Positions 2,523 to 21,260 of a stretch of DNA of 59,064 bases are shown in pieces. A program made the position numbers and the translations under genes. This DNA comes from Natronospiraceae bacterium (lineage in GTDB: Bacteria > Pseudomonadota > Gammaproteobacteria > Natronospirales > Natronospiraceae), in the NCBI GenBank assembly GCA_007133205.1, contig SLND01000040.1, forward strand, positions 1 through 59,064. Reading direction: 5' to 3'. Each line of letters opens with the position of its first letter. Positions within the stretch are counted from its first letter, which is position 1. The notes under the pieces are model-generated. The model was not told where the DNA came from and ran no database searches. It was given only the letters and a program-made list of their open reading frames with translations.

Positions 2523-2719
2523 TCGCGAATACGCGATCGGTAAGCACGGCCCAGGTGACTATTCAAAGCAGAGGTCTGGCGCCGAACAGGGTATTCCAGG
2601 ACTGTGTGCGCCATGGATGGCGCACCCAGAGCCCCCAGGGAAGGGTTTACGGCGATCCTGGAATACCCTGTCGGCGATAAAGGCCGGAACTCCCCCCGTC
2701 ACCGGCAACGAAGGGTCCT
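2523..2719 (+). repeat. Nested-hairpin intergenic repeat, copy 1
   Basis: This is the first of two about 196-bp related elements (the other is at 14998-15193, same orientation). The outer stem pairs ACAGGGTATTCCAGGA (2586-2601) with its exact complement at 2656-2671. The inner hairpin at 2602-2629 pairs CTGTGTGCGCCA with TGGCGCACCCAG around a TGGA loop, with one mismatch. A conserved tail, ACCGGCAACGAAGGGTCC, ends the element. It fills most of the 411-bp gap between the convergent AraC and coiled-coil lipoprotein genes. No gene is visible here: a 78-codon open frame exists only because the element is GC-rich. It could be a bidirectional terminator, a REP-like element or a MITE. Confidence 0.8.
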
Positions 2720-2760
2720 GACTCCAAGGCAAGCATGAGCGCGTAGCTGGTTTGCCGCAG

Positions 2761-3435
2761 TCAATCCTGACCGGTCTGCGCTTCGGCTTCCTCCTCGAGT
2801 TCCTCGGCCTCGCGCGCGACTGCCTCGGCTTCACCCTCGATGGCGTCGAGCTCGCCCTCTATTTCGCCCATCTCGCGTTCCGCTTCCCGCTGGATCTCCC
2901 GCTGTTCTGATTCGGGACGATCGGCGGCTTCCTCCAGGTCGCGCTCGAGTTCACGCTCTCGTGCCTCGAGTTCACCGATCTTGCGCTCGTGCTCCTCCTC
3001 AAGCTCGTCGAGGCGCTCGATGGTGGTGAGTTCGTCCTCGAGTTCGCCGACTTCCCGTTCCAGCTCCCGGCGTTCGGCCTCCGGGCGGTCGCCGGCCTGT
3101 TCCAGTTCGCGCTGTTTCTCGGCCAGCTCAGCCTCCACCTCATCACGCTCACGTGCCGGGGCGTCGGCATATTCCGCCATGTCGCGTTCGGCACTGCGGA
3201 TCTCGCGTTCGCGTTGCTCGCGCTCCCGCTTCGCTTCCCGCTGCGGCGCGGTAAGCTCCTGTTCCGCCTCATCAACCTCCCGCTCGGCATCGGCGCGGCG
3301 CCGTTCCGCATCGCGCTCGGTGTCGGCACGTCGTTCCTCGGCTTCAGCCTCGACGTCGTCGATTTCTTCCTCAAGGTAGGCACAGCCGGTAAACGCCACT
3401 GCCAGTGCCACCAGGGTAATTCCCGTCCACTTCAT
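2761..3435 (-). CDS. Glu/Arg-rich coiled-coil lipoprotein
   Basis: The 224-residue protein begins with a type II signal peptide: a hydrophobic stretch at residues 5-16 and a lipobox ending F-T-G-C with Cys18 as the lipidation site. The start ATG is preceded by GGGAGGGG. The rest is almost entirely Glu, Asp, Arg, Ala and Leu and should form one long coiled coil. An internal repeat is visible: GDRPEAERREL at 115-125 matches ADRPESEQREI at 171-181, a period of 56 residues or eight heptads. There are no Trp residues or enzyme motifs after the signal peptide. A periplasmic spacer or envelope structural role, loosely like Lpp or YgdI-type lipoproteins, is a guess. It is divergent from glcD. Confidence 0.75.
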   Translation of the reverse strand: MKWTGITLVALAVAFTGCAYLEEEIDDVEAEAEERRADTERDAERRRADAEREVDEAEQELTAPQREAKREREQREREIRSAERDMAEYADAPARERDEVEAELAEKQRELEQAGDRPEAERRELEREVGELEDELTTIERLDELEEEHERKIGELEARERELERDLEEAADRPESEQREIQREAEREMGEIEGELDAIEGEAEAVAREAEELEEEAEAQTGQD

Positions 3436-3482
3436 AAACCCCTCCCGTATCAGGATTCCGTCTGGATTCTCGTCGGTCCATG

Positions 3483-3515
3483 AAAGACCGCAAGGGGCCC
3501 ATTAAAGACCGCAAG
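3483..3515 (+). promoter_or_regulatory. Tandem 12-bp direct repeat upstream of glcD
   Basis: AAAGACCGCAAG occurs at 3483-3494 and again, identically, at 3504-3515, a 21-bp period equal to two helical turns. A GCTCGCGAGC palindrome follows at 3518-3527. The pair sits between the divergent lipoprotein (start 3435) and glcD (start 3582). This placement and spacing suit a regulator binding on one face of the DNA for control of the glc operon, but no known operator consensus was recognised. The repeat can be read as protein only if glcD is started upstream of its conserved N-terminus. Confidence 0.4.
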
Positions 3516-3581
3516 CCGCTCGCGAGCAAGCGAAAGCACAAGGGCTTGGCCGCATCGACCGAATGGGCCATTCTGAGCGCA

Positions 3582-5084
3582 ATGAGTACCGATTCCGTCT
3601 ACCGCCAGGAGGACTGCCGATTCGAGTATGACCGGGAAGACCTGGTCGGCCGCCTCGGCAGCATCCTGGATGATCCGCAGGCGCTGATCACGAGCGAGGA
3701 GGCGCTGCGTGCCTACGAGACCGACGGGCTGTCCGCCTATCGCGAGCTTCCGGTCGCCGCGGTGATTCCCCGCTCGGTCGAACAGGTGTGCGCCATCCTG
3801 CGCCTGTGCCAGGAACTGAAGGTCCCGGTAGTGGCCCGTGGCGCCGGGACCAGTCTCTCGGCAGGTGCCTTGCCTCACCCCCAGGGCCTGCTCCTGAGCC
3901 TGGCGCGCTTCAACCGCATCCTGGAGATCGACGCGGAGCGCCGCATCGCGCGGGTGGAGCCCGGGGTACGCAATCTCGCGGTAAGCGAGGTGGCTGCCCC
4001 TCACGGTCTCTACTACGCCCCGGACCCGTCCTCGCAGATTGCCTGCACCATTGGCGGCAATATCGCCGAAAACGCCGGGGGCGTGCACTGCCTGAAATAC
4101 GGACTCACCGTGCATAACGTGCTCGAAGTAACCCTGGCGACCATGGACGGGGAACTGGTGACGTTCGGTGGCGCGGGCGAGGAAGGACCCGGTTGCGACC
4201 TGCTGCCCGCGATCATCGGCTCGGAGGGAATGCTGGGCGTGGTGCTGGAAGCCACGGTGCAGCTGCTCCCGGAACCACCGTGCCGACGGGTGATGCTGGG
4301 GGCCTTCGAGACAGTGGAGCAGGCTGGCGATGCGGTCGCCGACATCATCGCAGCCGGCATTATCCCCGCCGGGCTCGAGATGATGGACGGCCCCGCAATC
4401 CGGGCCGCCGAGGATTTTGTTGCTGCCGGCTACCCGGTCGACGCCGCCGCGATCCTGATCTGCGAGCTGGACGGCATGCCGGCCGAGGCCGACGCCCAGG
4501 TCGAGCGGGTGCGGGCAGTGATGGAGGACCATGGCGCCGGCGAGGTCCGGGTCGCCGCCGACGAGAGCGAGGCGCAGCGGCTCTGGGCCGGACGCAAGGC
4601 GGCGTTTCCGGCGGTGGGGCGGATATCGCCGGATTATTACTGCATGGACGGCACCATTCCGCGCAAGCATCTGGCGACGGTTCTGGCACGGATGCGGGAG
4701 ATGGCCTCGGAATATGGGCTGCGGGTGGTCAACGTCTTTCACGCCGGCGATGGCAATCTCCACCCGCTGGTGCTTTACGACGCCAACGTGCCGGGAGAGC
4801 TGGAGCGGACCGAGGAGCTGGGCGGGAAGATCCTGGAGCTGTGCGTGGCCATGGGCGGCACCATCACGGGCGAGCACGGTGTGGGCATGGAGAAGATCAA
4901 CCAGATGTGCGTGCAGTTTTCCGATGCCGAACGCGAGCAGTTCCTGGCCCTGAAACGCGCCTTTGACCCGGACGGCTTGCTCAACCCCGGCAAGGGGGTG
5001 CCGAGCCTGAACCGCTGTGCGGAGTTCGGCGCCATGCATGTTCATGGCGGCAAGCTGCCGCTCCCGGATCTGGACCGCTTCTGA
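3582..5084 (+). CDS. glcD: Glycolate oxidase subunit GlcD (FAD-linked)
   Basis: This is the FAD-bearing catalytic subunit of the membrane-associated glycolate dehydrogenase complex GlcDEF, which oxidises glycolate to glyoxylate and passes electrons to the respiratory chain. The 500-residue product matches the usual GlcD length when the ATG at 3582 is used; the in-frame ATG at 3480 adds 34 residues unlike the family. The FAD_binding_4 domain contains PVVARGAGTSLSAGALP, DPSSQIACTIGGNIAENAGG and GSEGMLGVVLEATV. The C-terminal FAD-oxidase_C domain ends with the typical TITGEHGVGMEK followed by FDPDGLLNPGK. It is first in a three-gene operon with glcE 17 bases downstream. A possible operator lies upstream. 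Confidence 0.95.
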   Translation: MSTDSVYRQEDCRFEYDREDLVGRLGSILDDPQALITSEEALRAYETDGLSAYRELPVAAVIPRSVEQVCAILRLCQELKVPVVARGAGTSLSAGALPHPQGLLLSLARFNRILEIDAERRIARVEPGVRNLAVSEVAAPHGLYYAPDPSSQIACTIGGNIAENAGGVHCLKYGLTVHNVLEVTLATMDGELVTFGGAGEEGPGCDLLPAIIGSEGMLGVVLEATVQLLPEPPCRRVMLGAFETVEQAGDAVADIIAAGIIPAGLEMMDGPAIRAAEDFVAAGYPVDAAAILICELDGMPAEADAQVERVRAVMEDHGAGEVRVAADESEAQRLWAGRKAAFPAVGRISPDYYCMDGTIPRKHLATVLARMREMASEYGLRVVNVFHAGDGNLHPLVLYDANVPGELERTEELGGKILELCVAMGGTITGEHGVGMEKINQMCVQFSDAEREQFLALKRAFDPDGLLNPGKGVPSLNRCAEFGAMHVHGGKLPLPDLDRF

Positions 5085-5101
5085 GGGAAAACTGCAGGAA
5101 A

Positions 5102-6157
5102 ATGACGGCAAATGTGGACCATGGCGAGGAGATCCGGGCGCGTGTCGAGGCTGCCTTCCAGGCCGGCCGTCCCCTGGTCCCGACGGGGCATGGCAGCAAA
5201 CGATTTCTCGACAGCGATCGGGAAGGGGAGGTCCTGTCTCTCGCTCAGCACCGCGGCATCGTCAAGCACGAGCCCACCGAGCTGATCCTTACCGCCCGCG
5301 CTGGCACGCCGCTGGCGGAAATCGAGGCGGCGCTGGCGGAGGCGGGGCAGATGCTGGCGTTCGAGCCACCGCGATTCGCCGGTCACGGCACCCTGGGCGG
5401 GGCCGTGGCGACCGGCCTGGCCGGACCGCGGCGGCCCTTTGCCGGGCGGGTGCGGGATTTCGTCCTGGGGACCCGCTTCGTCAACGGGCGCGGCGAGGCG
5501 CTGCGATTTGGTGGCGAGGTGATGAAGAATGTCGCCGGCTACGATGTCTCGCGCCTGATGGTGGGAGCAATGGGCAGCCTGGGGGTATTGCTGGAAATCA
5601 CACTCAAGGTTCTGCCGCGGCCCGAATGCGAGCGGGCACTCGTGCTGGAACTGGGCCCTGAGGAAGCTTTCCGCCACGTTGCCGCCTGGGAAGCCGAGGG
5701 CCTGCCCGTGAGTGGCAGTGCTCACGACGGCCTGAGATTGCATCTGCGCCTTTCCGGGGCGGAATCGGCGGTGGCCGAGGCGGTGCGCCGGACCGGTGGC
5801 GAGAACGACTCTCCCGGCTTCTGGGAGGCGCTGCGTGACCATGAGCTGGACTGGTTCCGGAACCTGGATGGCCCGCCCTGGCGGGTGGTGTTGCCCGCTG
5901 GACGACGGTTGCCCGAGGGGCTGGCCAAGCGGGTACTGGCTGACTGGAATGGGCGCCAGCTCTGGCTCGACCGGGTAGACGATCCAGTGAGGCTGGAAGA
6001 GGCCGCCGCCGCGGTCGGGGGCAGCCTGATGCGCTTCGGTGCCTGCGGTCGGGGCGGACAGCGGCGTCCGGAGGCGAGGCCCGGGCGCGAACGCCTGGAA
6101 CGCCGGGTGAAGGAGGCTTTTGACCCGGCAGGGATACTCAATAGCGGGGCCAATTGA
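5102..6157 (+). CDS. glcE: Glycolate oxidase subunit GlcE (FAD-binding)
   Basis: This is the second flavin-binding subunit of the GlcDEF glycolate dehydrogenase. It has 351 residues, normal for the family. The FAD-binding region is recognisable from VPTGHGSKRF near residue 30, GHGTLGGAVATGLAGPRRPFAG near residue 95 (the typical GlcE stretch), GGEVMKNVAGYDVSRLMVGAMGSLGVL, and a C-terminal FDPAGILNSG. The N-terminal domain is shorter than in GlcD, as expected. The start ATG lies 17 bases after the glcD stop and the stop overlaps the glcF start by one base, so translation is likely coupled across the operon. Confidence 0.94.
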   Translation: MTANVDHGEEIRARVEAAFQAGRPLVPTGHGSKRFLDSDREGEVLSLAQHRGIVKHEPTELILTARAGTPLAEIEAALAEAGQMLAFEPPRFAGHGTLGGAVATGLAGPRRPFAGRVRDFVLGTRFVNGRGEALRFGGEVMKNVAGYDVSRLMVGAMGSLGVLLEITLKVLPRPECERALVLELGPEEAFRHVAAWEAEGLPVSGSAHDGLRLHLRLSGAESAVAEAVRRTGGENDSPGFWEALRDHELDWFRNLDGPPWRVVLPAGRRLPEGLAKRVLADWNGRQLWLDRVDDPVRLEEAAAAVGGSLMRFGACGRGGQRRPEARPGRERLERRVKEAFDPAGILNSGAN

Positions 6158-7371
6158 TGCAGACCCATCTCGCCGATTTCATACGCGACAGCGATACCGG
6201 ACGGGAGGCGGAACGCATTCTGCGATCCTGCACCCACTGCGGCTTTTGCCTGGCCACCTGTCCCACCTACCAGGAGCTCGGTGACGAGCTGGATTCCCCG
6301 CGCGGACGGATCTATCTGGTCAAGCAGGTTCTGGAGGGCGCCGAGCCCGGGGAGGTGACGCAACGTCATCTGGATCGCTGCCTGAGCTGCCGGGCCTGCG
6401 AAAGCACCTGCCCGTCGGGCGTGCAATACGCGCGCCTGGCCGACATCGGCCGGGAAGTGATCGAGGGGCGGGTTCCCCGCCGCAGGGACCGTTTGCTGCG
6501 CTGGTTCCTGTGCCGTGTGGCCGTGCGCCGGCACCTGTTCGCCGGCCTGCTGACACTGGCTCGTATGGCCCGGCCCCTGGTCCCTGCCCGGCTTCGCCAT
6601 GGTCTTCCACCGGTTGCTCCCCGGACTCGCTGGCCGGACCCGCCCGCCTCATCGCAAGAGCGGGTGGTGCTTCTGGAAGGTTGCGTCCAGCCGGCGATGA
6701 CTCCCGCTACCCACCCGGAGACGGCCCGGTTGCTGGGCGAGGCGGGGATAGAGACCGTGCGGGTACCGGCCGCCGGCTGCTGCGGGGCGCTTGCCCAGCA
6801 CCTGGGGCACGCGGAACAGGCGCGCCGACAGGCAAGGCAAAACATAGATGCCTGGTGGCCGCAGATCGAGGCCGGTGCAGCGGCGGTGGTGGCGAATGCC
6901 AGTGGCTGTGCGCTGCAGCTTGCGGATTACGGGCGGCTATTGACCAATGACCCGGCGTACGCAGAAAAGGCAAGAAAAATCAGTAAAATAACAAGGGATC
7001 CTGTGGAGTTGCTTGAAGCTGATGCTGCGCGTGTAAAGGCGCGCGAGGGTTTCCCCCGCCGCATTGCCTTTCACGCCCCCTGCACGCTCCGCCACGGGCG
7101 TGGCCTGCACGGTCGGATCGAGACCCTGTTGCACCGGGCCGGCTTCGAGCTCACCCCCGTAGGGGAACCGCATTCCTGCTGTGGTTCGGCCGGGAGCTAT
7201 TCGCTGCTGCAGCCGGAGCTGGCCGACCGCCTGCGCCGGCGAAAGCTGGACAATATCGAGCCGGCAGGGCCGGAGTTGATTGCCACCGCCAATGTCGGCT
7301 GTCAGACCCACCTGGGAGCCGCCTCACAGGTACCGGTCCGTCACTGGGTGGAACTGGTGAAAATCTGCTGA
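6157..7371 (+). CDS. glcF: Glycolate oxidase iron-sulfur subunit GlcF
   Basis: This is the electron-transfer subunit of the glycolate dehydrogenase complex. The 404-residue protein carries two 4Fe-4S motifs in its N-terminal domain, CTHCGFCLATCP near residue 25 and CLSCRACESTCP near residue 75. Two cysteine-rich CCG domains follow, with AGCCGALAQHLGH near residue 205 and HSCCGSAGSYS near residue 345. This layout is that of GlcF and of heterodisulfide-reductase D-like electron carriers. The ATG at 6157 overlaps the glcE stop; a TTG one codon earlier is the only alternative. No glcG or transporter gene follows, so the operon ends here, with a weak hairpin downstream. Confidence 0.95.
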   Translation: MQTHLADFIRDSDTGREAERILRSCTHCGFCLATCPTYQELGDELDSPRGRIYLVKQVLEGAEPGEVTQRHLDRCLSCRACESTCPSGVQYARLADIGREVIEGRVPRRRDRLLRWFLCRVAVRRHLFAGLLTLARMARPLVPARLRHGLPPVAPRTRWPDPPASSQERVVLLEGCVQPAMTPATHPETARLLGEAGIETVRVPAAGCCGALAQHLGHAEQARRQARQNIDAWWPQIEAGAAAVVANASGCALQLADYGRLLTNDPAYAEKARKISKITRDPVELLEADAARVKAREGFPRRIAFHAPCTLRHGRGLHGRIETLLHRAGFELTPVGEPHSCCGSAGSYSLLQPELADRLRRRKLDNIEPAGPELIATANVGCQTHLGAASQVPVRHWVELVKIC

Positions 7372-7391
7372 TTGATCGATTCGCACCGGGA

Positions 7392-7424
7392 GGCCGGGAC
7401 CGTACGAACACGGTTGGCCAAAAC
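7392..7424 (+). terminator. Possible terminator hairpin after glcF
   Basis: GGCC (7392-7395) plus ACCGT (7399-7403) pair with ACGGT (7410-7414) plus GGCC (7416-7419) around an ACGAAC loop, followed by AAAACCTTTT. The stem is interrupted and the T run is short and displaced, so termination here is plausible but not strong. Confidence 0.35.
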
Positions 7425-7504
7425 CTTTTGCTGTACCTCGGTAAGCGCTGAAACAGGGTGTTTATGCGCTTTTGCAGTATCCTTTCAAGGAGGCAAAGGA
7501 CGGG

Positions 7505-8620
7505 GTGGGCAAGGCCATGAACAGTTCCGATGACAAGGTACTGGTGATCCACGACGAGCGGATGCTGCAGCATCGCCCGGACGTGGATGAACGCTTTCTT
7601 CCCGGACGCCTGGACCGGCGGGTGCGGGAGATCCTGGATGGCCTGGCCGTGAAATGGCATTACCCCGAGCATCCGGGGCGCCTGAGTGCCATTACACAAC
7701 GGCTCGAGGCCAATCCGCTGCCCGGAATATCCTTTCGTGAAGGGCGGCCGGCAAGCAACGCGGAACTGGCGCGGGTGCATACGCGTTCCTACCTGCGCGA
7801 GATTGATCGCCTGCGGGATCAGCACGCCTGGCTGGATGTGGACACCACGGCGGTGTCGCCCGGCAGTGTCGAGGCCGCGGAAGTGGCCGCCGGATCCGCC
7901 ATTGTTGCGGTGGAAGCGATCATTCACGGCGAGGCGCAAAGCGCCTTCGCCCTTTGTCGGCCACCCGGCCACCATGCCGAATCGGTTCGCGCCCGCGGGT
8001 TCTGCCTGTTCAACAACGTCGCGGTGGCGGCGGCCCATGCCCGGGAAGCGCTGGGTTGCGAGCGGGTTCTGGTGGTGGACTGGGACGCCCACCACGGAAA
8101 CGGTACCCAGGAGATCTTCTGGGCTTCGCCCGGCGTGATGCTGGTGGATTTTCACCGCGCCGCGCCCTTTTATCCTGGCTCGGGGCATCTCACAGATGTG
8201 GGCGCCGGCCTGGGAGAAGGTTATACGGTCAACGTGCCCCTGCCCGGGGAAGTGGGGGATCTCGGCATGCTGCGTGCGTTCCGTGAGGTGCTGGTGCCGG
8301 CAGCGGACTGGTTTCAGCCTGATCTCATCCTGGTGTCAGCCGGATTCGACCCGCATCGGCTGGACCTGTGCATGAACCTGACGCATGACGGCTTTCGCAA
8401 CATGACCCGGGTGATCCAGGAGCTGGCCGCGCAACACTGTGACGGCCGGGCCGCCTTCGTGCTGGAAGGGGGCTATCACCTGGACGCCCTGTCCCAGGGC
8501 GTGCGGGCCGTGCTGGAAACCCTGGCGGGTGGCAGCGTGCCTGAGCTGGTTGAACCCGGTTACCCGGAGGTGGAAGAGGCCGCAGCCTTCCACCGCGGTG
8601 CGTTCAGCGAGGAACCCTGA
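7505..8620 (+). CDS. Histone deacetylase family protein (class II HDAC/acetylpolyamine amidohydrolase-like)
   Basis: This zinc-dependent deacetylase should remove acetyl groups from lysine side chains or polyamines in the cytoplasm. The 371-residue product has the class II landmarks: H-Y-P-E-H-P-G-R-L near residue 50, RPPGHHAESVRARGFCLFNNVAVAA with the catalytic His pair, VVDWDAHHGNGTQEIF with the zinc-binding Asp and His, SAGFDPHRLD with the second zinc Asp, and LEGGYHLDALS with the transition-state Tyr. I chose the GTG at 7505 because AAGGAGG lies ten bases before it; the ATG at 7517 is a close alternative. It stands alone between glcDEF and the opposite-strand murB, so the natural substrate cannot be inferred from context. 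Confidence 0.9.
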   Translation: MGKAMNSSDDKVLVIHDERMLQHRPDVDERFLPGRLDRRVREILDGLAVKWHYPEHPGRLSAITQRLEANPLPGISFREGRPASNAELARVHTRSYLREIDRLRDQHAWLDVDTTAVSPGSVEAAEVAAGSAIVAVEAIIHGEAQSAFALCRPPGHHAESVRARGFCLFNNVAVAAAHAREALGCERVLVVDWDAHHGNGTQEIFWASPGVMLVDFHRAAPFYPGSGHLTDVGAGLGEGYTVNVPLPGEVGDLGMLRAFREVLVPAADWFQPDLILVSAGFDPHRLDLCMNLTHDGFRNMTRVIQELAAQHCDGRAAFVLEGGYHLDALSQGVRAVLETLAGGSVPELVEPGYPEVEEAAAFHRGAFSEEP

Positions 8621-8627
8621 GGCCGGA

Positions 8628-9701
8628 TCATAGAATCACCGGCTCCGGTTCCAGCCGGATGCCGAATTCCGATTCGACCGTATCCCGGATCTGCTCGGCC
8701 AGGCGCCACAGTTCGCTCCCTTTGGCGCCACCGTAGTTGACCAGAACGAGTGCGTGGCGCTCCGAAACGCCGGCATTACCCGATCGTGTGCCGCGAAAGC
8801 CGCAGTACTCGATCAGGTATGCCGCCGAGATTTTCGCCCGGTCTCCTTCAAGAGCGAATACCGGCAGTTCCGGATGGTCGTGCTTCAATTCATCGGCCTT
8901 GCTGGTGTTCACCACCGGATTCTTGAAAAAGCTGCCGGCGTTGCCAATCTCGGCGGGATCGGGCAGCTTGCGTCGGCGCAGGGTTTCCACCGCCAGGGCG
9001 ACGTCGGCAGGGGCAGGCTTATCAACGCCCAGCTTATCCAGCATGTCGCGCACGCCGGGATAATGAATCCGTGGTGTGCCCGAGCGCGGCAGAACCAGAT
9101 CCAGTTCGGTGATGATCCAGCGTCCGGGATGGCGCTTGAAAATGGAATCGCGATAGGCAAAGGCGCAGGCCTCTCGGTCGAGCCAGACGAATTCACCGGC
9201 CTCGCTGTCCCAGGCATGCACGGCGTCGACGAACTCTTCCAGCTCGGTACCGTAGGCCCCGATGTTCTGGAAAGGTGCGGCGCCCACTGAACCGGGGATC
9301 AGGATCAGGTTCTCCAGTCCGGCGTAGCCCTGATCGAGCGACCAGCGCACGAACTGGTCCCAGTTCTCGCCGGCACTGACCCGAATACGGTCGTGCTTCC
9401 CGCGCCGGGTCTGTACCTCGATACCCCGGTTTTCCATGGCCAGCACCAGGCCCGGAAAGTCACGGGTGAACAGGACATTGCTGCCGCCGCCCAGGATCAG
9501 CCGGGGCAGGCTCTGGAACTGTGTGTCTGCAGTGAGCTCCGGGATGGCGTCCCGGTCCATGACCCGTGCGAGCCAATGGGCACGTGCAGGCACCCCGAAG
9601 GTGGTGCGCTCGGCAAGCTGGGCATCGGGTATCACCTGGTAGCCCTGCTTGTCCCCATTGTTGGCCCGTTTGTTGTGCTGTTCGTCTGCGGATTGAGGCA
9701 T
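8628..9701 (-). CDS. murB: UDP-N-acetylenolpyruvoylglucosamine reductase
   Basis: MurB is the NADPH-dependent flavoenzyme that reduces UDP-GlcNAc-enolpyruvate to UDP-MurNAc in peptidoglycan precursor synthesis. The 357-residue protein is slightly longer than E. coli MurB and belongs to the long (type I) form. Recognised segments are LPRLILGGGSNVLFTRDFPG near residue 67 (FAD loop), LENLILIPGSVGAAPFQNIGAYG near residue 127, FAYRDSIFKRH, GNAGSFFKNPVV with the catalytic Ser, and SERHALVLVNYG with the catalytic Glu. The frame is open far upstream, but the extension is only the antisense of the aminopeptidase gene, so the ATG at 9701 was taken. It runs tail to tail with the deacetylase gene, 7 bases apart. 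Confidence 0.95.
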   Translation of the reverse strand: MPQSADEQHNKRANNGDKQGYQVIPDAQLAERTTFGVPARAHWLARVMDRDAIPELTADTQFQSLPRLILGGGSNVLFTRDFPGLVLAMENRGIEVQTRRGKHDRIRVSAGENWDQFVRWSLDQGYAGLENLILIPGSVGAAPFQNIGAYGTELEEFVDAVHAWDSEAGEFVWLDREACAFAYRDSIFKRHPGRWIITELDLVLPRSGTPRIHYPGVRDMLDKLGVDKPAPADVALAVETLRRRKLPDPAEIGNAGSFFKNPVVNTSKADELKHDHPELPVFALEGDRAKISAAYLIEYCGFRGTRSGNAGVSERHALVLVNYGGAKGSELWRLAEQIRDTVESEFGIRLEPEPVIL

Positions 9702-9881
9702 GTCGGGTCCGGAGTCGGAAGTGCAGGCGGCATTGTACCGCCTTCGCGGCATGTTTCCCGGTGCGGCTCCGGAACCGGGTCTGTCAGTACCGGGACGGTC
9801 CATGGAAGCCGGGCAGGGTCCAACCGGATTGCGGGATACGCTATCCTGCCCGCCCCGTGTACCGCTATGGAGTCGAGGCGC

Positions 9882-11267
9882 ATGTTCATTGATCAGGCAT
9901 CCAATCCTGTTCCCATCATTCCGCTGACCGAGTCGAGCCTGGAAAACTGGCTGGAAACGGCGGCCGAGGACCGAAAACGCTGGGTACGGGCGAGTGGTTT
10001 TCGGGCCCGGCCGGGAACCTCGCTCTTGATGCCTGACGGCGATGGGGAGCTGGCCTGCGTGTTGAGCGGGCATGTGCCGGAAGAGCGGCTGTGGTCCCTG
10101 GCTCATCTGCCGGGGGTGTTGCCGAAGGGGGAGTATCGCTTGCAGAGCGGCTGGAGCGCGGAGGAAGAGGCCCGGGCCGCGCTTGGCTGGGGCCTTGGTG
10201 GCTACCGTTTTGATCGCTATCGGAAGCTTGAGCATCCCGAGGCGCGGCTGGTGTTGCCCGAAGGGCGGGAGCGGGAAGTACGCATCCTGTTCGAGGCCGC
10301 CACGCAGGTGCGAAACCTGGTGAATACACCGGCCATTGATCTTGGACCCTCGGATCTGGCCGATGAAGCACGGGATCTGGCGAGGGAATTCGGCGGCAAG
10401 TGTCGTGTGATTGAAGGCAGGAAACTGGCGGAAGAGTTTCCCGCGGTGCACGTGGTGGGGCAGGCTTCAAGCCGTCCGCCATGCATGATCCGCATGGAAT
10501 GGGGCAGACGCGAAGATCCGGTTCTGGCGCTGGTGGGCAAGGGCGTGATCTTCGATTCCGGTGGGCTCAACATCAAGCCCGGGGCGGGCATGGTGACAAT
10601 GAAAAAGGACATGGGTGGTGCGGCGCATGTCCTTGGTCTGGCCCGCATGATCATGGCCCTTGGACTGAAAGTCCAGTTGCGGGTGTATATTCCCGCGGTG
10701 GAAAACGCGATCGCGGGCAATGCCTACCGACCCTCGGACATCATCCGCACGCGTAACGGCACCAGCGTGGAGATTGGCAATACCGATGCCGAAGGCCGGG
10801 TGATTCTTTCCGATGCCCTGAGCTGGGCCTGTGAAGAGGGCGCGGAGCGGATCATTGATTTCGCGACACTGACGGGAGCGGCCCGCGTCGCCCTGGGTGA
10901 GGATCTGCCGCCGATCTATGGCCGTGATGGTGCCGCAGTCCGTGCCATCCAGGAATCCGCTTTCCGCGAAGAGGATCCACTCTGGCACATGCCGCTGTAC
11001 AAACCCTACAAGCAGCAGATACAGCCACCACTGGCGGACATTTCGAATACCGGCACCACGCCCATGGGGGGCAGTGTGCTCGCCGCGCTCTTCCTCGATC
11101 ACTTCGTGGCTGCCGAGGTCGACTGGTACCACCTGGATGTCTTTGCCTGGAACCTGAATGACCGTCCGGGCCGTCCCAAGGGCGGCGAGGCTCAGGGGCT
11201 GCGTGCGATCTGGGCATGGTTGTGCGAACAGTACGGCAGATCCGGTGATGGCGGGGAAAAGACATGA
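9882..11267 (+). CDS. Leucyl aminopeptidase family protein (M17)
   Basis: This cytosolic metallo-aminopeptidase of the M17 family cleaves N-terminal residues from peptides using two metal ions. The 461-residue protein ends with the complete catalytic domain: GKGVIFDSGGLNIKPG (metal-binding Lys/Asp), MKKDMGGAAHVLG (metal Asp), and NTDAEGRVILSDAL, the M17 signature with the metal-binding Asp and Glu and the catalytic Arg. DFATLTGAARVALG follows. The N-terminal domain is short and divergent, as in the non-PepA branch found in many Proteobacteria. The start is uncertain: the ATG at 9867 is in frame five codons earlier and neither start has a well-spaced ribosome site. The end overlaps folM by four bases, so the two are co-translated. 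Confidence 0.92.
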   Translation: MFIDQASNPVPIIPLTESSLENWLETAAEDRKRWVRASGFRARPGTSLLMPDGDGELACVLSGHVPEERLWSLAHLPGVLPKGEYRLQSGWSAEEEARAALGWGLGGYRFDRYRKLEHPEARLVLPEGREREVRILFEAATQVRNLVNTPAIDLGPSDLADEARDLAREFGGKCRVIEGRKLAEEFPAVHVVGQASSRPPCMIRMEWGRREDPVLALVGKGVIFDSGGLNIKPGAGMVTMKKDMGGAAHVLGLARMIMALGLKVQLRVYIPAVENAIAGNAYRPSDIIRTRNGTSVEIGNTDAEGRVILSDALSWACEEGAERIIDFATLTGAARVALGEDLPPIYGRDGAAVRAIQESAFREEDPLWHMPLYKPYKQQIQPPLADISNTGTTPMGGSVLAALFLDHFVAAEVDWYHLDVFAWNLNDRPGRPKGGEAQGLRAIWAWLCEQYGRSGDGGEKT

Positions 11268-12004
11268 GTGAAACAGCACGCACGGCCCTGGTGACCGGTG
11301 CGGCCCGTCGCCTGGGCCTGTATCTGACCGAGCAGCTTCTCGAGGACGGCTGGCGGGTATTCGCACTGAGTCGCCAATCCTCGCCGGAACTGGACGCCCT
11401 GCAACGTGAGACACTCAGAATCATCAGAGCCGGAAGCTATGAGCTGTCTGCGCTGCAGCAGGCGATGGCAGCGATTCAAGAGACGGCGGATTCACTGGAC
11501 CTGATGGTCCACAATGCCTCCATGTTCGAAAAGGATCAGTTCGAAAAGGAACGGGAGGCAGGGGAGGATGTCGCCGGCTTTCTTGATCGCCTTTATCAGG
11601 TTCACATGCGCATGCCCGTGATCCTGAACGAGGGACTCAGGGACCTGCTTCATCGTGGTGAGGGCGCCTGCGTGGTGAACGTCACGGATATCTATGCCGA
11701 GAACCCCAATCCGGATTATGGGCTGTACTGTTCCACCAAGGCGGGGCTGGAAAATCTCACGAAAAGCTATGCCCGCAAATGGGCACCGAAGGTACGTGTC
11801 AACAGTATTCAGCCGGGGCCCATTCGCTTTCTCCCGGGGGAGCAGAATGCGCAGGAGCGCAAGACGATTCTGGCAGAAACGCCCATGGGTTCAGAAGGTG
11901 GCTTCTACCCAATCTATCAGGGCCTGCGGTTCATCATCGAGAATGCGTATCTCACGGGCAGCGCGATCAAGATAGATGGTGGCCGGTCGATCGGGCAGGG
12001 GTGA
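11264..12004 (+). CDS. folM: FolM-type short-chain dehydrogenase (dihydromonapterin/dihydrofolate reductase)
   Basis: This SDR enzyme should reduce dihydromonapterin, and more weakly dihydrofolate, with NADPH. The 246-residue protein starts with the dinucleotide loop TGAARRLGLYL (near residue 10). It carries VHNASMF, the FolM-like run VVNVTDIYAENPNP, the catalytic YCSTKAGLENLTKSYA (Y-x-x-x-K), and RVNSIQPGPIRFLPGE. It overlaps the aminopeptidase gene by four bases at its start. Its last 114 bases overlap the 3' end of the opposite-strand folK-like gene, so two pterin genes meet tail to tail. The FolM assignment rests on these motifs plus the folK neighbour; a generic SDR cannot be excluded. 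Confidence 0.82.
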   Translation: MSETARTALVTGAARRLGLYLTEQLLEDGWRVFALSRQSSPELDALQRETLRIIRAGSYELSALQQAMAAIQETADSLDLMVHNASMFEKDQFEKEREAGEDVAGFLDRLYQVHMRMPVILNEGLRDLLHRGEGACVVNVTDIYAENPNPDYGLYCSTKAGLENLTKSYARKWAPKVRVNSIQPGPIRFLPGEQNAQERKTILAETPMGSEGGFYPIYQGLRFIIENAYLTGSAIKIDGGRSIGQG

Positions 12005-12406
12005 TTCATAAGCGACAATGGGCGCCACCTGTCCGCGGCCTTCGATAACGGGTCTCAGGTAAGGTTCGGTGATCCGGCTGGCCATGCCGGGATCGAAGCT
12101 CGGCGCAGAGGAAAGAATATCGATGTCGCAGATTCGGTCCTTCCGGCTGCTGTCGGGATCGGCACGATCGCGTCCCAGGCGAACCTCGATGGTTTCGAAT
12201 CGTTGTTTCAGTCCCGGCAGCTCCAGGGATGAGTACAGAGTCAGTACGCCATTGATGAACCGCGCATTGGTAGCAATGCCCACCGGTTCGGTATAAAGGG
12301 GCGGGTACAGCCAGAGCACCGGGGTGACTTCACCGATCTCCTCCAGGGTGCGACCGATGCTGTTCACCGGGTCAATATTCGAGCCGATGGATATCCAGTA
12401 ATACAT
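11891..12406 (-). CDS. folK: HPPK-like 2-amino-4-hydroxy-6-hydroxymethyldihydropteridine diphosphokinase
   Basis: HPPK transfers pyrophosphate from ATP to 6-hydroxymethyl-dihydropterin in folate synthesis. The 171-residue protein has the N-terminal WISIGSNIDP signature, YTEPVG near residue 40, NARFINGVLTL, LKQRFETIEVRLGRDR near residue 70, and RKDRICDIDIL, where the two Asp are the Mg-binding pair. The segment before that pair is more divergent than in E. coli FolK. The ATG at 12406 was chosen (a TTG lies one codon earlier). It lies 20 bases downstream of the lipoprotein gene on the same strand, probably one transcript. Its final 114 bases overlap folM on the other strand. Confidence 0.8.
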   Translation of the reverse strand: MYYWISIGSNIDPVNSIGRTLEEIGEVTPVLWLYPPLYTEPVGIATNARFINGVLTLYSSLELPGLKQRFETIEVRLGRDRADPDSSRKDRICDIDILSSAPSFDPGMASRITEPYLRPVIEGRGQVAPIVAYESPLPDRPATIYLDRAAREIRILDDEPQALIDWVEATF

Positions 12407-12426
12407 CAATGATGTTCCACCCGGGG

Positions 12427-13911
12427 TCAGTCTGAGTCTTCCACCCGTTCGAAGTGGTCGAAAAGCAGCCTGGGTTCGTCAAAATGCCGGCGTCCGGCAA
12501 AGGCAATGGCGTGACGGCCGGGCTGGCGCATGGCGCCGGCGGACTGGACCCCCATGGGCCAGAGCAGCCAGCGCTCCGGGCGGTCGGTGGTCGGCACCAG
12601 GCCATCGGGTTGATACAGGCTCTTGCGTCCACGGGGATGGGGAAGACTGCGCAGGGAATCGGCAGCTTCCACCGGCATGCGGAGATTGCTGTCGGCGCCA
12701 TCCGTGGTGTCCACGCCAATCAGGTAATGGCTGGCGCTGTCGCGCGTCAGCCGAATGCGATCCTCGTCCGACGCTGAGTCCGGTAACGGTGGACCAAGGA
12801 AGGCCGGTTCCCCGCCAGGCCGATCATCACGGGGCTGGAGCGCCGAACCGGGAAAGGCCATGTAGTAGCAGCCACAGGTGTGTACGCTCTCCCCGGCAAG
12901 TACTTCGCCATCTTCGTCCAGAGTGATCCGCCAGATGAGTCCGTCCAGACGCCCGGCCAACAAGCGGTCGAGGAAACCATTGTCGGCCGGTCTTTCCGGG
13001 AACCAGACCATGTAATTGAGCTGGAGTACCGGCTCGTCATCGAAACGTGCGTAGGAGATATAGCGGAATTCCACCGGGGATTCGATATCGACATCCGGCA
13101 GATGCGGATACTGCCAGACGGGGCGGCCGATCCGGTCGGCCCGGGTCGCGGTGCGTACCCGCCACACAGGTGCGTGGGCGTCCAGCAGCGCTTCCTTGTC
13201 CGCCGCTTCCGGCTGTGGAATGCCAAGGGCATCCCGGTCGAGGTCGCCGGGAGCCGGAGCCGCGCCTGGGTCGTCGTAGCTGCCGACATGGCTACGCCAG
13301 AGTTGGCCGGGGCCGGTTTCGTGAGTGGTTTCCAGGGCTTCGGCCTGGTCATCATGCAGGTTGTGCACACCGAACAGCACGAACCAGCGGGTGATCGGGT
13401 AGATTCCGAAGAAGCGTGCGGCCCGGCTGTAGTCATCGGGTACTTCAGCCTGCCGGCGCAGTCGATCCTGCAGCTCCGGATTCTGCATCACCTGGCGGTT
13501 CAGCATTTCGCCGCATTCGGCAAGCGGCGCCAGGATGTCATCCACGGCCTCATCATCCGGGGCATAGCCGGTCAGGTTGGCGGTTTCGTAGCGACGGGAT
13601 TCCAGGTCCAGCTCGCGTAGATGGCCAAGCCAGGCTTCCCATTCGGATTCACTGTCGAGTTCGGCACTCCAGCTGGCGAGAAATCGGTTGGCCCGCAGCC
13701 AGGGAAAGTCGCGGATGCGTGCATTGCCGCCATCGCCAACGTCGTGATCGTCAATACGCTGGTCAAACTCCTGGAAATCCTTGACACAGGCGGCGTGATC
13801 TTCCGCCAGATCCAGTCGGTCCGGCAGGGTGGCACATCCACCAAGCAGCAAGCCGGCCGCGATCGCGGCGGGCCATGCATATCTGTTGTTCTGCTGCGTC
13901 GTGCTATGCAC
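12427..13911 (-). CDS. Large lipoprotein of unknown function
   Basis: I do not recognise this 494-residue protein. It starts at a GTG at 13911 with AGGGAGA five to six bases upstream. A type II signal peptide follows (hydrophobic residues 12-23, lipobox L-G-G-C with Cys26), so it should be anchored in the envelope. The mature part is rich in Asp, Arg and Trp, without transmembrane segments. Notable stretches are FFGIYPITRWFVLFGVHNLHDD in the middle, FRYISYARFDDEPVLQLNYMVWFPER, and VHTCGCYYMAFPGS, which could hold a metal or a disulfide. The open frame continues upstream across the transporter gene, but only as antisense. It is probably cotranscribed with the folK-like gene and divergent from the EamA transporter. 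Confidence 0.72.
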   Translation of the reverse strand: MHSTTQQNNRYAWPAAIAAGLLLGGCATLPDRLDLAEDHAACVKDFQEFDQRIDDHDVGDGGNARIRDFPWLRANRFLASWSAELDSESEWEAWLGHLRELDLESRRYETANLTGYAPDDEAVDDILAPLAECGEMLNRQVMQNPELQDRLRRQAEVPDDYSRAARFFGIYPITRWFVLFGVHNLHDDQAEALETTHETGPGQLWRSHVGSYDDPGAAPAPGDLDRDALGIPQPEAADKEALLDAHAPVWRVRTATRADRIGRPVWQYPHLPDVDIESPVEFRYISYARFDDEPVLQLNYMVWFPERPADNGFLDRLLAGRLDGLIWRITLDEDGEVLAGESVHTCGCYYMAFPGSALQPRDDRPGGEPAFLGPPLPDSASDEDRIRLTRDSASHYLIGVDTTDGADSNLRMPVEAADSLRSLPHPRGRKSLYQPDGLVPTTDRPERWLLWPMGVQSAGAMRQPGRHAIAFAGRRHFDEPRLLFDHFERVEDSD

Positions 13912-13995
13912 GGTCTCTCCCTGTGTCCTTCCGGCTTGCCCACGAATGCTAGCATGCGCGTTTGGTAGTCGACACGGGGCTGTACAGGAACAGCA

Positions 13996-14895
13996 ATGGC
14001 CTATCTCATTTTCGTGACGGCCCTCTGGGCCTTCTCCTTCAGTCTGATCGATGTCTATCTTGCCGGGCAGGTGGACAGTGATTTTGCGGTATTGAGCCGG
14101 GTGGTGCTGGCGGGGCTGCTTTTCCTGCCCCTGGCCCGCTGGCGGGGATTGCCCGTGCCATTGCTGTCGGGCACCGTCCTGGTGGGGGCATTGCAGTTTG
14201 GCCTGACCTATCTGTGTCTCTACCGGTCCTTTGCCTACCTGACCGTCCCGGAAGTCCTGTTGTTTACCGTGACCACGCCCCTGTGGGTCGCGCTGATCGA
14301 CGACGCCCTCTACCGGCGGTTTTCGCCTGTGGCACTGCTGGCCGCAATCATGGCCGTGATCGGGGCGGGTGTCATGCGTTATGACGGGATTACCGGCGAC
14401 TTTCTGGTGGGTTTCGTCCTGATCCAGGCGGCCAATTTCGCCTTTGCCGCGGGCCAGGTGGGTTACAAGCACCTGAACCGGAAATTTCCGGTCGATGTGC
14501 CGGCCTGGCGCTTCTTCGGTTATTTCTATCTCGGCGGTCTGGCCGTCTCCCTTCCGAGTTTCCTCCTGTTTGGTGACCCGCAGATGCTGCCGGAGACCGG
14601 TGTGGAGTGGGGAGTGATCCTGTGGCTGGGACTGGCGGCGTCGGGCCTGGGCTTGTTCCTCTGGAACCGGGGCGCCTGTCTGGTGGACGGGGGCACCCTG
14701 GCGGTGATGAACAATGTCCTGATACCTGCCGGCCTGCTGGTGAATCTTCTGCTGTGGGATGAAGGCACCGATCTGCTGCGGTTGGCAATCGGCTCGGGGG
14801 TGATCCTGCTGTCCCTCTGGTTCAACGCGCGCTTTTCCCGCCATGCGGTGCTGCAATGGCGCGGCACGGAACGGCGGGCGGGTCAGGATGCCTGA
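13996..14895 (+). CDS. EamA-family (DMT superfamily) transporter
   Basis: The 299-residue protein has about ten hydrophobic segments in two similar halves, the normal layout of drug/metabolite transporter family permeases with two EamA domains. The first begins at once with IFVTALWAFSFSLIDVYLAG; the second covers the stretch from FLVGFVLIQAANFAFAAGQV to the end. Members move amino acids, amines or other small metabolites across the inner membrane; nothing in the sequence shows the substrate. The start ATG is 84 bases from the divergent lipoprotein gene. A nested-hairpin repeat lies directly downstream, between this gene and the convergent spoVR. Confidence 0.85.
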   Translation: MAYLIFVTALWAFSFSLIDVYLAGQVDSDFAVLSRVVLAGLLFLPLARWRGLPVPLLSGTVLVGALQFGLTYLCLYRSFAYLTVPEVLLFTVTTPLWVALIDDALYRRFSPVALLAAIMAVIGAGVMRYDGITGDFLVGFVLIQAANFAFAAGQVGYKHLNRKFPVDVPAWRFFGYFYLGGLAVSLPSFLLFGDPQMLPETGVEWGVILWLGLAASGLGLFLWNRGACLVDGGTLAVMNNVLIPAGLLVNLLLWDEGTDLLRLAIGSGVILLSLWFNARFSRHAVLQWRGTERRAGQDA

Positions 14896-14997
14896 CGCCC
14901 GGATTGCGGTGCATGCCCGCAAGTCGTGCACTACCTGAGCATTGCGTTTGGGATGGTACCCCTTCTACACGGGTGACGGGTGGCGCTCCGATCAGAT

Positions 14998-15193
14998 TTC
15001 GAATACGTGGTCAGAAAAGCACGGCCCAGGTGACCACCCAAAGATAAGGCCCTGATGCCGACAGGGTAGTCCAGGACTGGGTGCGCCATGGATGGCGCAC
15101 CCAGAGCCTCCAGGGAAGGATTCACGGCGATCCTGGACTACCCTGTCGGCAATAAAGGGCCGGAACGCCCCCGTCACCGGCAACGAAGGGTCC
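14998..15193 (+). repeat. Nested-hairpin intergenic repeat, copy 2
   Basis: This is the second copy of the element at 2523-2719, in the same orientation. The outer stem is a perfect 20-bp pairing of 15057-15076 with 15131-15150 (core ACAGGGTAGTCCAGGA). The inner hairpin at 15077-15104 is a perfect 12-bp stem, CTGGGTGCGCCA with TGGCGCACCCAG, closed by TGGA. Compared with copy 1, a T-A pair in the outer stem is replaced by G-C on both arms, a compensatory change. It occupies most of the 362-bp gap between the convergent EamA transporter and spoVR genes. I see no gene in the remainder of that gap. Confidence 0.8.
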
Positions 15194-20075: not shown

Positions 20076-21260
20076 CTAGCGGGCGGCTGCCCTGGCCCGG
20101 CCCGAGGCCCAGTCCTGGAGGCGTTCGGCAGCCTCATCCAGGGTGGCGTCTTCCCGGGCAAAGCAGAAACGAGCGAGTGATTCTCCCTCGGTACCGCGGA
20201 AAAAGGCGCTGCCGGGAATACTCGCGATTCCGGCCTCTTCCAGGAGCTTCATGGAGGCTTCCCGGGAGGTCTCGCAGCCGAGCGGCCTGATGTCGGCAAG
20301 GACATAATAGGCGCCTTCCGGGATTCGGGGTTCCAGTCCGGCCTCGCGCAGAGCGGCGCAGAAGCGGTCACGCTTTTGCTGGTAATCGCGGGCCAGACCC
20401 GCATAGAAATCGGCCTCCAGGCCAGCGAGGCCGTCCGCCACTGCGTACTGGAGCGGCGAGGGTGCACAGACGTAGTAAAGGTCGTTGGTCAGGCCGATGG
20501 GTCCCGCCAGCTCCCGGTGGGCGGCCAGGTAGCCGATGCGCCAGCCCGTGATGGAGAAGGTCTTGGAGTAGCCACTGATGGTCACCGTGCGTTCCCACAT
20601 GCCGGGCAGGGTGGCCATGCTGATGTGTTCGTGCCCGTCGTAGAGGAAATACTCGTAGATCTCGTCGGTGATGCAGAGCAGGTTGTGGCGCTGACAGATC
20701 TCGGCAATGGTTTCCATTTCCTTGCGGCTGAAAACCCGGCCGGAGGGGTTTCCGGGCGTGTTGACCACCACCGCCCGGGCACCGCGGGCCGCGTCTTCCA
20801 GTCGTTCGGCATCAAGGGCCAGGGTGGTCGGATCCAGGGGGACGAATTCCGGTTCCAGGCCCGCAACCACTGCAGTGTTCAGGTGGTAGCCATAGTAGGG
20901 CTCGAGCAGCAGAATCCGGTCCCCGGGGTTGCACAGGGCCATCAGGGTGGCGGCAAAGGCCCCCGTACTGCCGATGGTTACCACCACTTCGGATTCCGGG
21001 TCGACCTGCATGCCGTTGTCCCGGGCCATCTTGTCGGCCAGGGCCTGGCGCAGGCGTCCGATCCCGTCAAAGCGGGTATAGAGATTGGCGCCCCGGTCGA
21101 TTGCCGGTTTCACGCGCTCGGTCACGGCAGTCGGGGGCGGGGTATCGCAGATACCCTGGCCGAGATTGATCCCGCCCAGTTCGACGCAACGCTGGGACAT
21201 GGCGCGGATGTCGGACTGGACGAGCCTGGCGATTCGTTGACTGCGAATGGGATCCAGCAT
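20076..21260 (-). CDS. Pyridoxal-phosphate aminotransferase (class I/II)
   Basis: The 394-residue enzyme is a fold-type I aminotransferase close to the kynurenine/methionine and aspartate-like group. The PLP Lys is Lys233 in SGYSKTFSITGWRIGY. Other conserved parts are LGQGICDTPPP near residue 33, TIGSTGAFAATLMAL near residue 95, VVNTPGNPSGRVFS near residue 165 and ITDEIYEYFLYDG near 197 (the PLP-binding Asp/Tyr). The ATG at 21260 has GAGG eight bases upstream. The substrate is not determined; methionine, glutamine or aromatic amino acids are all possible for this group. It is on the same strand as the sugar dehydrogenase gene upstream (69-bp gap). Confidence 0.88.
   Translation of the reverse strand: MLDPIRSQRIARLVQSDIRAMSQRCVELGGINLGQGICDTPPPTAVTERVKPAIDRGANLYTRFDGIGRLRQALADKMARDNGMQVDPESEVVVTIGSTGAFAATLMALCNPGDRILLLEPYYGYHLNTAVVAGLEPEFVPLDPTTLALDAERLEDAARGARAVVVNTPGNPSGRVFSRKEMETIAEICQRHNLLCITDEIYEYFLYDGHEHISMATLPGMWERTVTISGYSKTFSITGWRIGYLAAHRELAGPIGLTNDLYYVCAPSPLQYAVADGLAGLEADFYAGLARDYQQKRDRFCAALREAGLEPRIPEGAYYVLADIRPLGCETSREASMKLLEEAGIASIPGSAFFRGTEGESLARFCFAREDATLDEAAERLQDWASGRARAAAR

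Follow-up and report, generated by a model that had tools for sequence, protein, structure and literature searches.

The element described here, of which two copies lie in the 59,064-nucleotide contig SLND01000040.1 of a Natronospiraceae bacterium (assembly GCA_007133205.1; Gammaproteobacteria; the whole contig is called the window below), can be compared with three kinds of described system. The first is that of the small RNAs CsrB/CsrC and RsmX/Y/Z, in which hairpins with A(N)GGA loops provide more than one protein site per RNA. In the case of RsmE, the consensus site is (A/U)CANGGANG(U/A), mostly carried by a penta- or hexaloop (PMC6849547). For CsrA, systematic evolution of ligands by exponential enrichment (SELEX) gave the consensus RUACARGGAUGU, with six-nt loops in 44 of 55 ligands, and the repeats of CsrB read CAGGA(U/A/C)G (PMC7652899). 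The second kind comprises the bacterial miniature inverted-repeat transposable elements (MITEs), such as QMITE1 and QMITE2 of Coxiella, the Correia elements and the IS630-type elements, which are non-coding, dispersed, very stably folded sequences of 100-400 bp with inverted-repeat ends. Published MITEs are usually limited to one species or genus. The QMITEs are known to give rise to small RNAs (PMC5896051). The third kind includes repetitive extragenic palindromes (REPs) and the REPIN and BIME arrangements, which go with the transposase RAYT; these are extragenic palindromic sequences of high copy number with inverted core pairs. A REP is a short palindrome that bears a head of the GT(A/G)G type and lies beside a RAYT gene (PMC2817692).

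The window copies belong to a multicopy family that is mainly intergenic and is bounded by inverted repeats; its stems covary, two CANGGANG loops are near-invariant in it across the class, and one core is joined to different ends. This family would be MITE-like in form and CsrB/RsmZ-like in its sites. However, the small RNAs CsrB/CsrC and RsmX/Y/Z come from one or few independently transcribed genes, whereas the element occurs as tens to hundreds of dispersed copies, bounded by inverted repeats, in which a long stem closes a core of only two sites. In contrast with bacterial MITEs, what is conserved in it is a structured core in its interior, class-wide and joined to different ends; unlike REP, REPIN or BIME sequences, it showed neither a GT(A/G)G-type head nor, at the loci examined, a link to RAYT. 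The original prediction, made from the letters of the window, knew of no named family for it. In agreement with this, no family of Rfam 15 was above its gathering threshold in the window or in 20 diverse loci, and permissive thresholds likewise gave nothing convincing. TwoAYGGAY and similar Rfam motifs, which consist of two hairpins capped by GGA-containing loops, are a lead only; they gave no match at the gathering threshold. In the open-access literature searched, no description of the sequence or of the idea was found. The explanation that we favour, with a confidence that we would call evenly balanced, is that the sequence is a dispersed, non-autonomous element of the MITE type, on the transcript of which a pair of CsrA sites would be displayed.

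A multicopy family with one core and different ends

The source genome (G000) is a draft of 2.07 Mb, 84% complete. Searching it at the DNA level returned 43 matching pieces, corresponding to about 25 separate copies. The two copies to which the prediction was limited are the only ones in the window and a small part of those in the genome. A non-autonomous mobile element was among the readings then proposed, and it is supported by the multiplicity of the copies, their almost always intergenic position, their terminal inverted repeats and their lack of coding capacity. Complete copies measure 233-237 bp (about 235 bp) and are bounded by inverted repeats of 23 bp (GGACCCTTCGTTGCCGGTGACGG), the likeness among copies stretching far past the core. 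The same genome also holds lone cores (L025-L028) devoid of GGACCCTTCGTTGCCGGTGACGG ends, the outer-stem sequence of which is wholly different. Four copies (G000 contigs C3, at 9512-9616, C88, C155 and C157; loci L222-L225 and L227) carry a 105-nt insert within hairpin 2, which adds hairpins including CAC-AUGGAU-GUG and GC-AGGAAU-GC. Part of this insert also occurs alone at C136:5352-5408. Cores often form inverted pairs (minus then plus), typically about 130-280 nt apart (L021, L025, L027, L032, L041, L050 and others); in the bacterium's own family, where such pairs are frequent, the distance is about 250 nt, and more divergent copies are present in the same-family relatives.

Other ends surround the same core in a second, distant genome, G238, of which 1.2 Mb were analysed. 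Most of the 86 cores in this stretch sit in 160-bp elements bounded by a 27-bp inverted repeat that starts with TATACC and is unrelated to the ends used in the window genome; the remaining cores have yet another surround. Loops of hairpin 1 differ in length there and keep A(N)GGA (AUGGA, AGGGAU, AGGGACA, AGGAUA). Enlarged elements of 209-335 bp (contig C1, for instance 130666-130922 and 20624-20835) bear additional A(N)GGA hairpins, which read on the complementary strand of the core, namely CGCC-AUGGAU-GGCG, UGCC-AUGGAU-GGCA and CGCC-ACGGAU-GGCG (CGCCAUGGAUGGCG, UGCCAUGGAUGGCA, CGCCACGGAUGGCG), and CGCCATGGATGGCGTGAAT has 64 matches with at most two mismatches in the 1.2 Mb. Inverted core pairs or such opposite-strand hairpins would present A(N)GGA hairpins whichever strand is transcribed. 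With terminal inverted repeats of 23 bp in the source genome and 27 bp in G238, within the 4-30 bp that define MITEs, and as a short (about 235 or 160 bp), non-coding and dispersed sequence in about 25 to 273 copies, the element has these two properties of a MITE.

Using a model of the core, the element was found in 69 of 370 gammaproteobacterial genomes, representing 59 of 273 genera. Carriers include Sedimenticola, Thiohalomonas denitrificans, Thiohalobacter, Thiogranum, Arenimonas oryziterrae and a Halomonas. A 14-base pattern of hairpin 2 has 273 matches in G238 and 89, 52, 46 and 44 in others, as compared with 0-1 for the reversed pattern. In a phylum-wide draw of genomes, matches outside the Gammaproteobacteria were single and off-consensus, none of them convincing. 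Among plasmid, phage and viral collections, the one convincing copy was that of a Halomonas replicon of 1.8 Mb (48 bits with the model). The csrA gene was found in 67 of the 69 element-positive genomes and in 256 of the 301 element-negative ones (Fisher p = 0.003, without correction for kinship); the two exceptions among the former are G194 and the source genome, whose three same-family relatives all have csrA. Six genomes show 6-12 CsrA-family matches (G280, G315, G380, G360, G237 and G210), and the first three of these are also element carriers.

Conservation of the core and candidate CsrA sites

The core, of about 82 nt, is organized in the window copies as an outer stem around two hairpins, the second of which is interrupted by a bulge of 5 nt in its 3' arm. 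When 18 cores were aligned by hand, standard pairs made up 96% of the pair cells, against 31-43% in controls with slid partners. Both sides have changed in 15 of the 28 pairs, and the covariation score is 0.34, as compared with 0.04-0.08 when partners are slid. Long perfect DNA inverted repeats can stay matched through template switching. For this reason, covariation of the stems is not in itself a proof of RNA function. The loops provide a stronger argument because their bases are unpaired. Among 37 cores less than 80% identical, where the stem columns are free to vary, the loops of both hairpins keep C-A-N-G-G-A-N-G almost without exception, free variation within it being confined to the N positions. 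The counts out of 37 are C37 A37 N G37 G36 A37 N G37 in hairpin 1 and C37 A37 N G37 G37 A36 N G37 in hairpin 2.

A hairpin loop with CANGGANG or A(N)GGA, as expected of a CsrA/Rsm site, is therefore near-invariant in both hairpins of these 37 non-redundant cores. Hairpin 2 reads UACAGGGAUGUA in many copies, and in relatives where hairpin 1 has a pentaloop it reads CAGGACG or CAGGAUG, so that both documented types of site occur in the element. On these grounds of sequence and fold, the core RNA may be bound by CsrA. Of 35 cores in which the distance from one GGA to the next was counted, start to start, 32 have 23 or 24 nt; given this near-constant spacing, one CsrA dimer could bind both sites. 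Part of copy 2 weakly matches RsmW of Rfam (20.4 bits, below the cut-off of 52), a result that is in line with the CsrA idea and says no more.

The following mechanism can be proposed. A copy of the element would be transcribed on its plus strand, the simplest source being read-through out of an adjacent gene, since no promoter was found in the window copies. The core RNA would fold so that the long closing stem presents two hairpins, each displaying C-A-N-G-G-A-N-G, the recognition site of Csr/Rsm proteins (CsrA, RsmA, RsmE). The element would then sequester or tether CsrA, as a transposon-borne functional counterpart of the CsrB/RsmZ decoys. The gain for the element lineage might lie in this sequestration or in insertions being made less harmful. 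A wider proposal, to which we lend only tentative credit, is that a class-wide transposable lineage kept a two-site CsrA/RsmA module through changes of stems and terminal repeats, its tens to hundreds of copies in some genomes together forming a CsrA sponge that could reset the Csr/Rsm regulon. If so, parasitic repeats would feed directly into a master post-transcriptional regulator. Binding of CsrA to the cores would mean that many environmental Gammaproteobacteria contain a large mobile-borne set of potential sites, able to compete with small RNAs of the CsrB/RsmZ type, and that the level of free CsrA is partly set by the number of repeats. The recurrence of one repeat in the intergenic regions of many genera would likewise be accounted for. 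One model and one pattern allow any gammaproteobacterial genome to be scanned.

Placement, mobility and rival explanations

Gene calls were made with a simple hexamer-based script, not taken from annotation. On many small loci, simple calling of open reading frames (ORFs) placed 36 of 75 copies inside genes, mostly over shadow ORFs; gene context being too noisy there, placement is considered in G238 and in the source genome only. In G238, only 4 of the 86 cores are inside called genes, though coding sequence represents 79% of the stretch. The shares of convergent and divergent gaps equal the background (convergent, 15 of 82), and tandem contexts divide into 26 sense and 25 antisense. In the source genome, convergent gaps hold 9 of 18 copies, as compared with 16% expected (p = 7e-4).

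Several observations weigh against a paired CsrA site carried by RNA. No strand bias relative to neighbouring genes exists, the total for tandem contexts being 28 sense and 30 antisense (p = 0.9), and there is no sign of selection for the sense orientation. Single-copy mutations in 64 aligned G238 elements hit the 12 columns of the GGA motifs 9 times and the 149 other columns 86 times; resident copies thus appear to decay freely, their GGA bases without visible protection. No convincing promoter was found in either window copy, and csrA was found neither in the source genome, at its 84% completeness, nor in G194. Counted over distinct stems, GGA loops show no enrichment in the source genome as a whole, and one of about two-fold in G238. 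SELEX preferred short stems, and some stems of hairpin 1 are long. Moreover, the UUYAC bulge on the 3' side of hairpin 2 (alignment A3 columns 71-75; window 2646-2650 and 15121-15125) and the GAGC and GCG flanks of this hairpin are conserved nearly as well as the GGA loops, and CsrA sites leave them unaccounted for. Finally, the model favours these loops because it was built from loop-bearing copies. When copies were picked by hairpin 2 alone, most loops of hairpin 1 still read A(N)GGA, with changed stems and loop lengths of 5-7 nt, which lessens this bias and does not remove it. Considering the absence of strand bias and of extra GGA protection in resident copies, the constraint seems to bear on the lineage that spreads, not on the neighbours of the copies, and a benefit to this lineage is more likely than one to the genes beside each copy.

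Mobility of the element is suggested by its dispersal and inverted-repeat ends. The flanks of the GGACC ends in the source genome show no clear target duplication; the G238 element has TATA at its ends, which would fit a TA duplication. IS630 was tried as a partner and rejected, as no IS630-type DDE_3 gene was found in G238 or G000, DDE_3 being the only transposase family tested beyond Y1. No full-length autonomous element lies between G238 ends in the 1.2 Mb. RAYT was set aside as well, since its genes are present and unlinked to the element at the loci examined. Absence of a linked RAYT also led us to drop the idea that the GGAC end with its imperfect palindrome is a REP.

No partner transposase having been identified though Y1 genes are common in element-rich genomes, the main rival is a role of the hairpins in mobility itself. 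The element would be a purely DNA-level non-autonomous one, its hairpins and loops being recognized as folded single-stranded DNA by a transposase, in a REPIN-like relation to Y1/RAYT or another enzyme, and the likeness to CsrA sites would be coincidental. Terminal inverted repeats, high copy number and mainly intergenic, strand-neutral placement all suit such an element, as do the constraint on spreading lineages instead of resident copies and the conservation of the UUYAC bulge beyond the GGA loops. Y1_Tnp genes occur in each of the three same-family genomes and in 13 of 14 that are rich in the element, raw counts without a class-wide Y1 background. However, neither the element nor its ends flank the Y1 loci of G001-G003 or the one examined of four in G238, and G230, with 52 pattern copies, has no Y1 match. 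It would also have to be accommodated that the same core is joined to unrelated ends, that further A(N)GGA hairpins came up within inserts, and that variation is free at the N positions only, which matches a known RNA-binding protein. On balance, we consider this alternative unlikely, though to be taken seriously.

If the element were instead a cis-acting one of 3' untranslated regions, either the mRNA stabilizer of the original prediction or a CsrA-responsive processing site, it would be selected at each gene. This would agree with the excess of convergent gaps in the source genome, since a copy in such a gap is necessarily in sense to one of its two neighbours. But the even division of tandem contexts, the lack of a convergent preference in G238 and the unprotected GGA bases of resident copies weaken such a function, which we regard as improbable. 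The idea that the copies are independent small-RNA genes, paralogues of CsrB/RsmZ that multiplied in the genome, has a still slimmer chance: A(N)GGA hairpins and the small RNAs derived from QMITE1 and QMITE2 in Coxiella (PMC5896051) would speak for it, but neither a promoter nor a terminator is convincing in the window copies, each core has two sites only, and inverted-repeat ends and up to 273 copies are not those of such genes. A bidirectional intrinsic terminator, also suggested at first, is the least probable, because very stable stems and the convergent preference in the source genome are offset by the want of a consistent U-run (copy 1 has none after its outer stem on either strand, and the weak terminator-like sites of copy 2 do not use this stem), by copies in divergent and antisense positions, and by two conserved loops that a terminator does not need and would leave unexplained.

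The window copies and their surroundings

The features of both copies are listed in Table 1. As predicted, the copies are related and lie on the same strand; their identity is 87% over 194 nt. They fold far better than dinucleotide shuffles (z = -4.3 for copy 1 and -7.9 for copy 2), none of 200 shuffles equalling either. A covariance-model scan of the whole window with filters off found these two places only, the best other sequence reaching 12 bits. An extent of about 196 bp had been proposed. Copy 2 reaches further on its left side, up to about 14955, its right end having there a decayed counterpart in inverted orientation; the left end of copy 1 is no longer recognizable. Outer stems of 16 and 20 bp had been given; the first is correct and the second has one pair more. 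The TGGA-capped inner hairpin corresponds to hairpin 1, the second hairpin, with the loop AGGGAA, having been overlooked and the CANGGANG loops not remarked on. The compensatory change of an outer pair from T-A in copy 1 to G-C in copy 2 is indeed present.

Table 1. Coordinates of the element copies in the window (scores of covariance model R1 are not independent of these copies, from which it was partly built)
Feature	Position	Strand	Sequence or loop	Basis and remarks
Copy 1, long element	2526..2718	+		87% identical to copy 2; left end decayed, right inverted repeat intact
Copy 1, conserved core	2588..2669	+		Covariance model R1, 105.7 bits, E 1.6e-25
Copy 1, outer stem, 16 bp	2586-2601 with 2656-2671	+	ACAGGGTATTCCAGGA with TCCTGGAATACCCTGT	Sequence, fold, covariation
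Copy 1, hairpin 1	2602..2629	+	Loop AUGGAU 2613-2618; CAUGGAUG fits CANGGANG	Fold, alignment A2, non-redundant core set
Copy 1, hairpin 2	2631..2653	+	Loop AGGGAA 2637-2642; CAGGGAAG fits CANGGANG	Fold, alignment A2, non-redundant core set
Copy 1, right terminal inverted repeat	2696..2718	-	GGACCCTTCGTTGCCGGTGACGG	Exact match to repeat
Copy 2, full span, about 239 bp	14955..15193	+		Right inverted repeat exact, left one decayed
Copy 2, part aligned to copy 1	15000-15193	+		DNA similarity
Copy 2, decayed left terminal inverted repeat	14955..14980	+	GGTACCCCTTCTACACGGGTGACGGG	7 edits from repeat; position agrees with 233-237 bp of intact copies
Copy 2, conserved core	15063..15144	+		Covariance model R1, 102.2 bits, E 1.4e-24
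Copy 2, outer stem, 21 bp	15056-15076 with 15131-15151	+	TGCCGACAGGGTAGTCCAGGA with TCCTGGACTACCCTGTCGGCA	Sequence, fold
Copy 2, hairpin 1, 11-bp stem	15077..15104	+	Loop AUGGAU 15088-15093	Fold, alignments
Copy 2, hairpin 2	15106..15128	+	Loop AGGGAA 15112-15117	Fold, alignments
Copy 2, right terminal inverted repeat	15171..15193	-		Exact match to repeat

Both copies lie between convergent genes, as the prediction had it. Copy 1 is flanked by an AraC-family gene (+) and by ORF 2761-3435 (-), the putative lipoprotein gene of the prediction, which has no Pfam match, and copy 2 by EamA (+) and SpoVR (-). An 834-aa ORF without Pfam match runs opposite the EamA gene at 12427-14931 (-); it is probably a spurious G+C-rich shadow ORF. 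Copy 2 was counted as convergent because EamA has a family match and this ORF has none. Elsewhere in the window, a 31-nt direct repeat (3698-3728 and 5824-5854, 77% identical) lies inside coding sequence and probably reflects chance or domain-level likeness.

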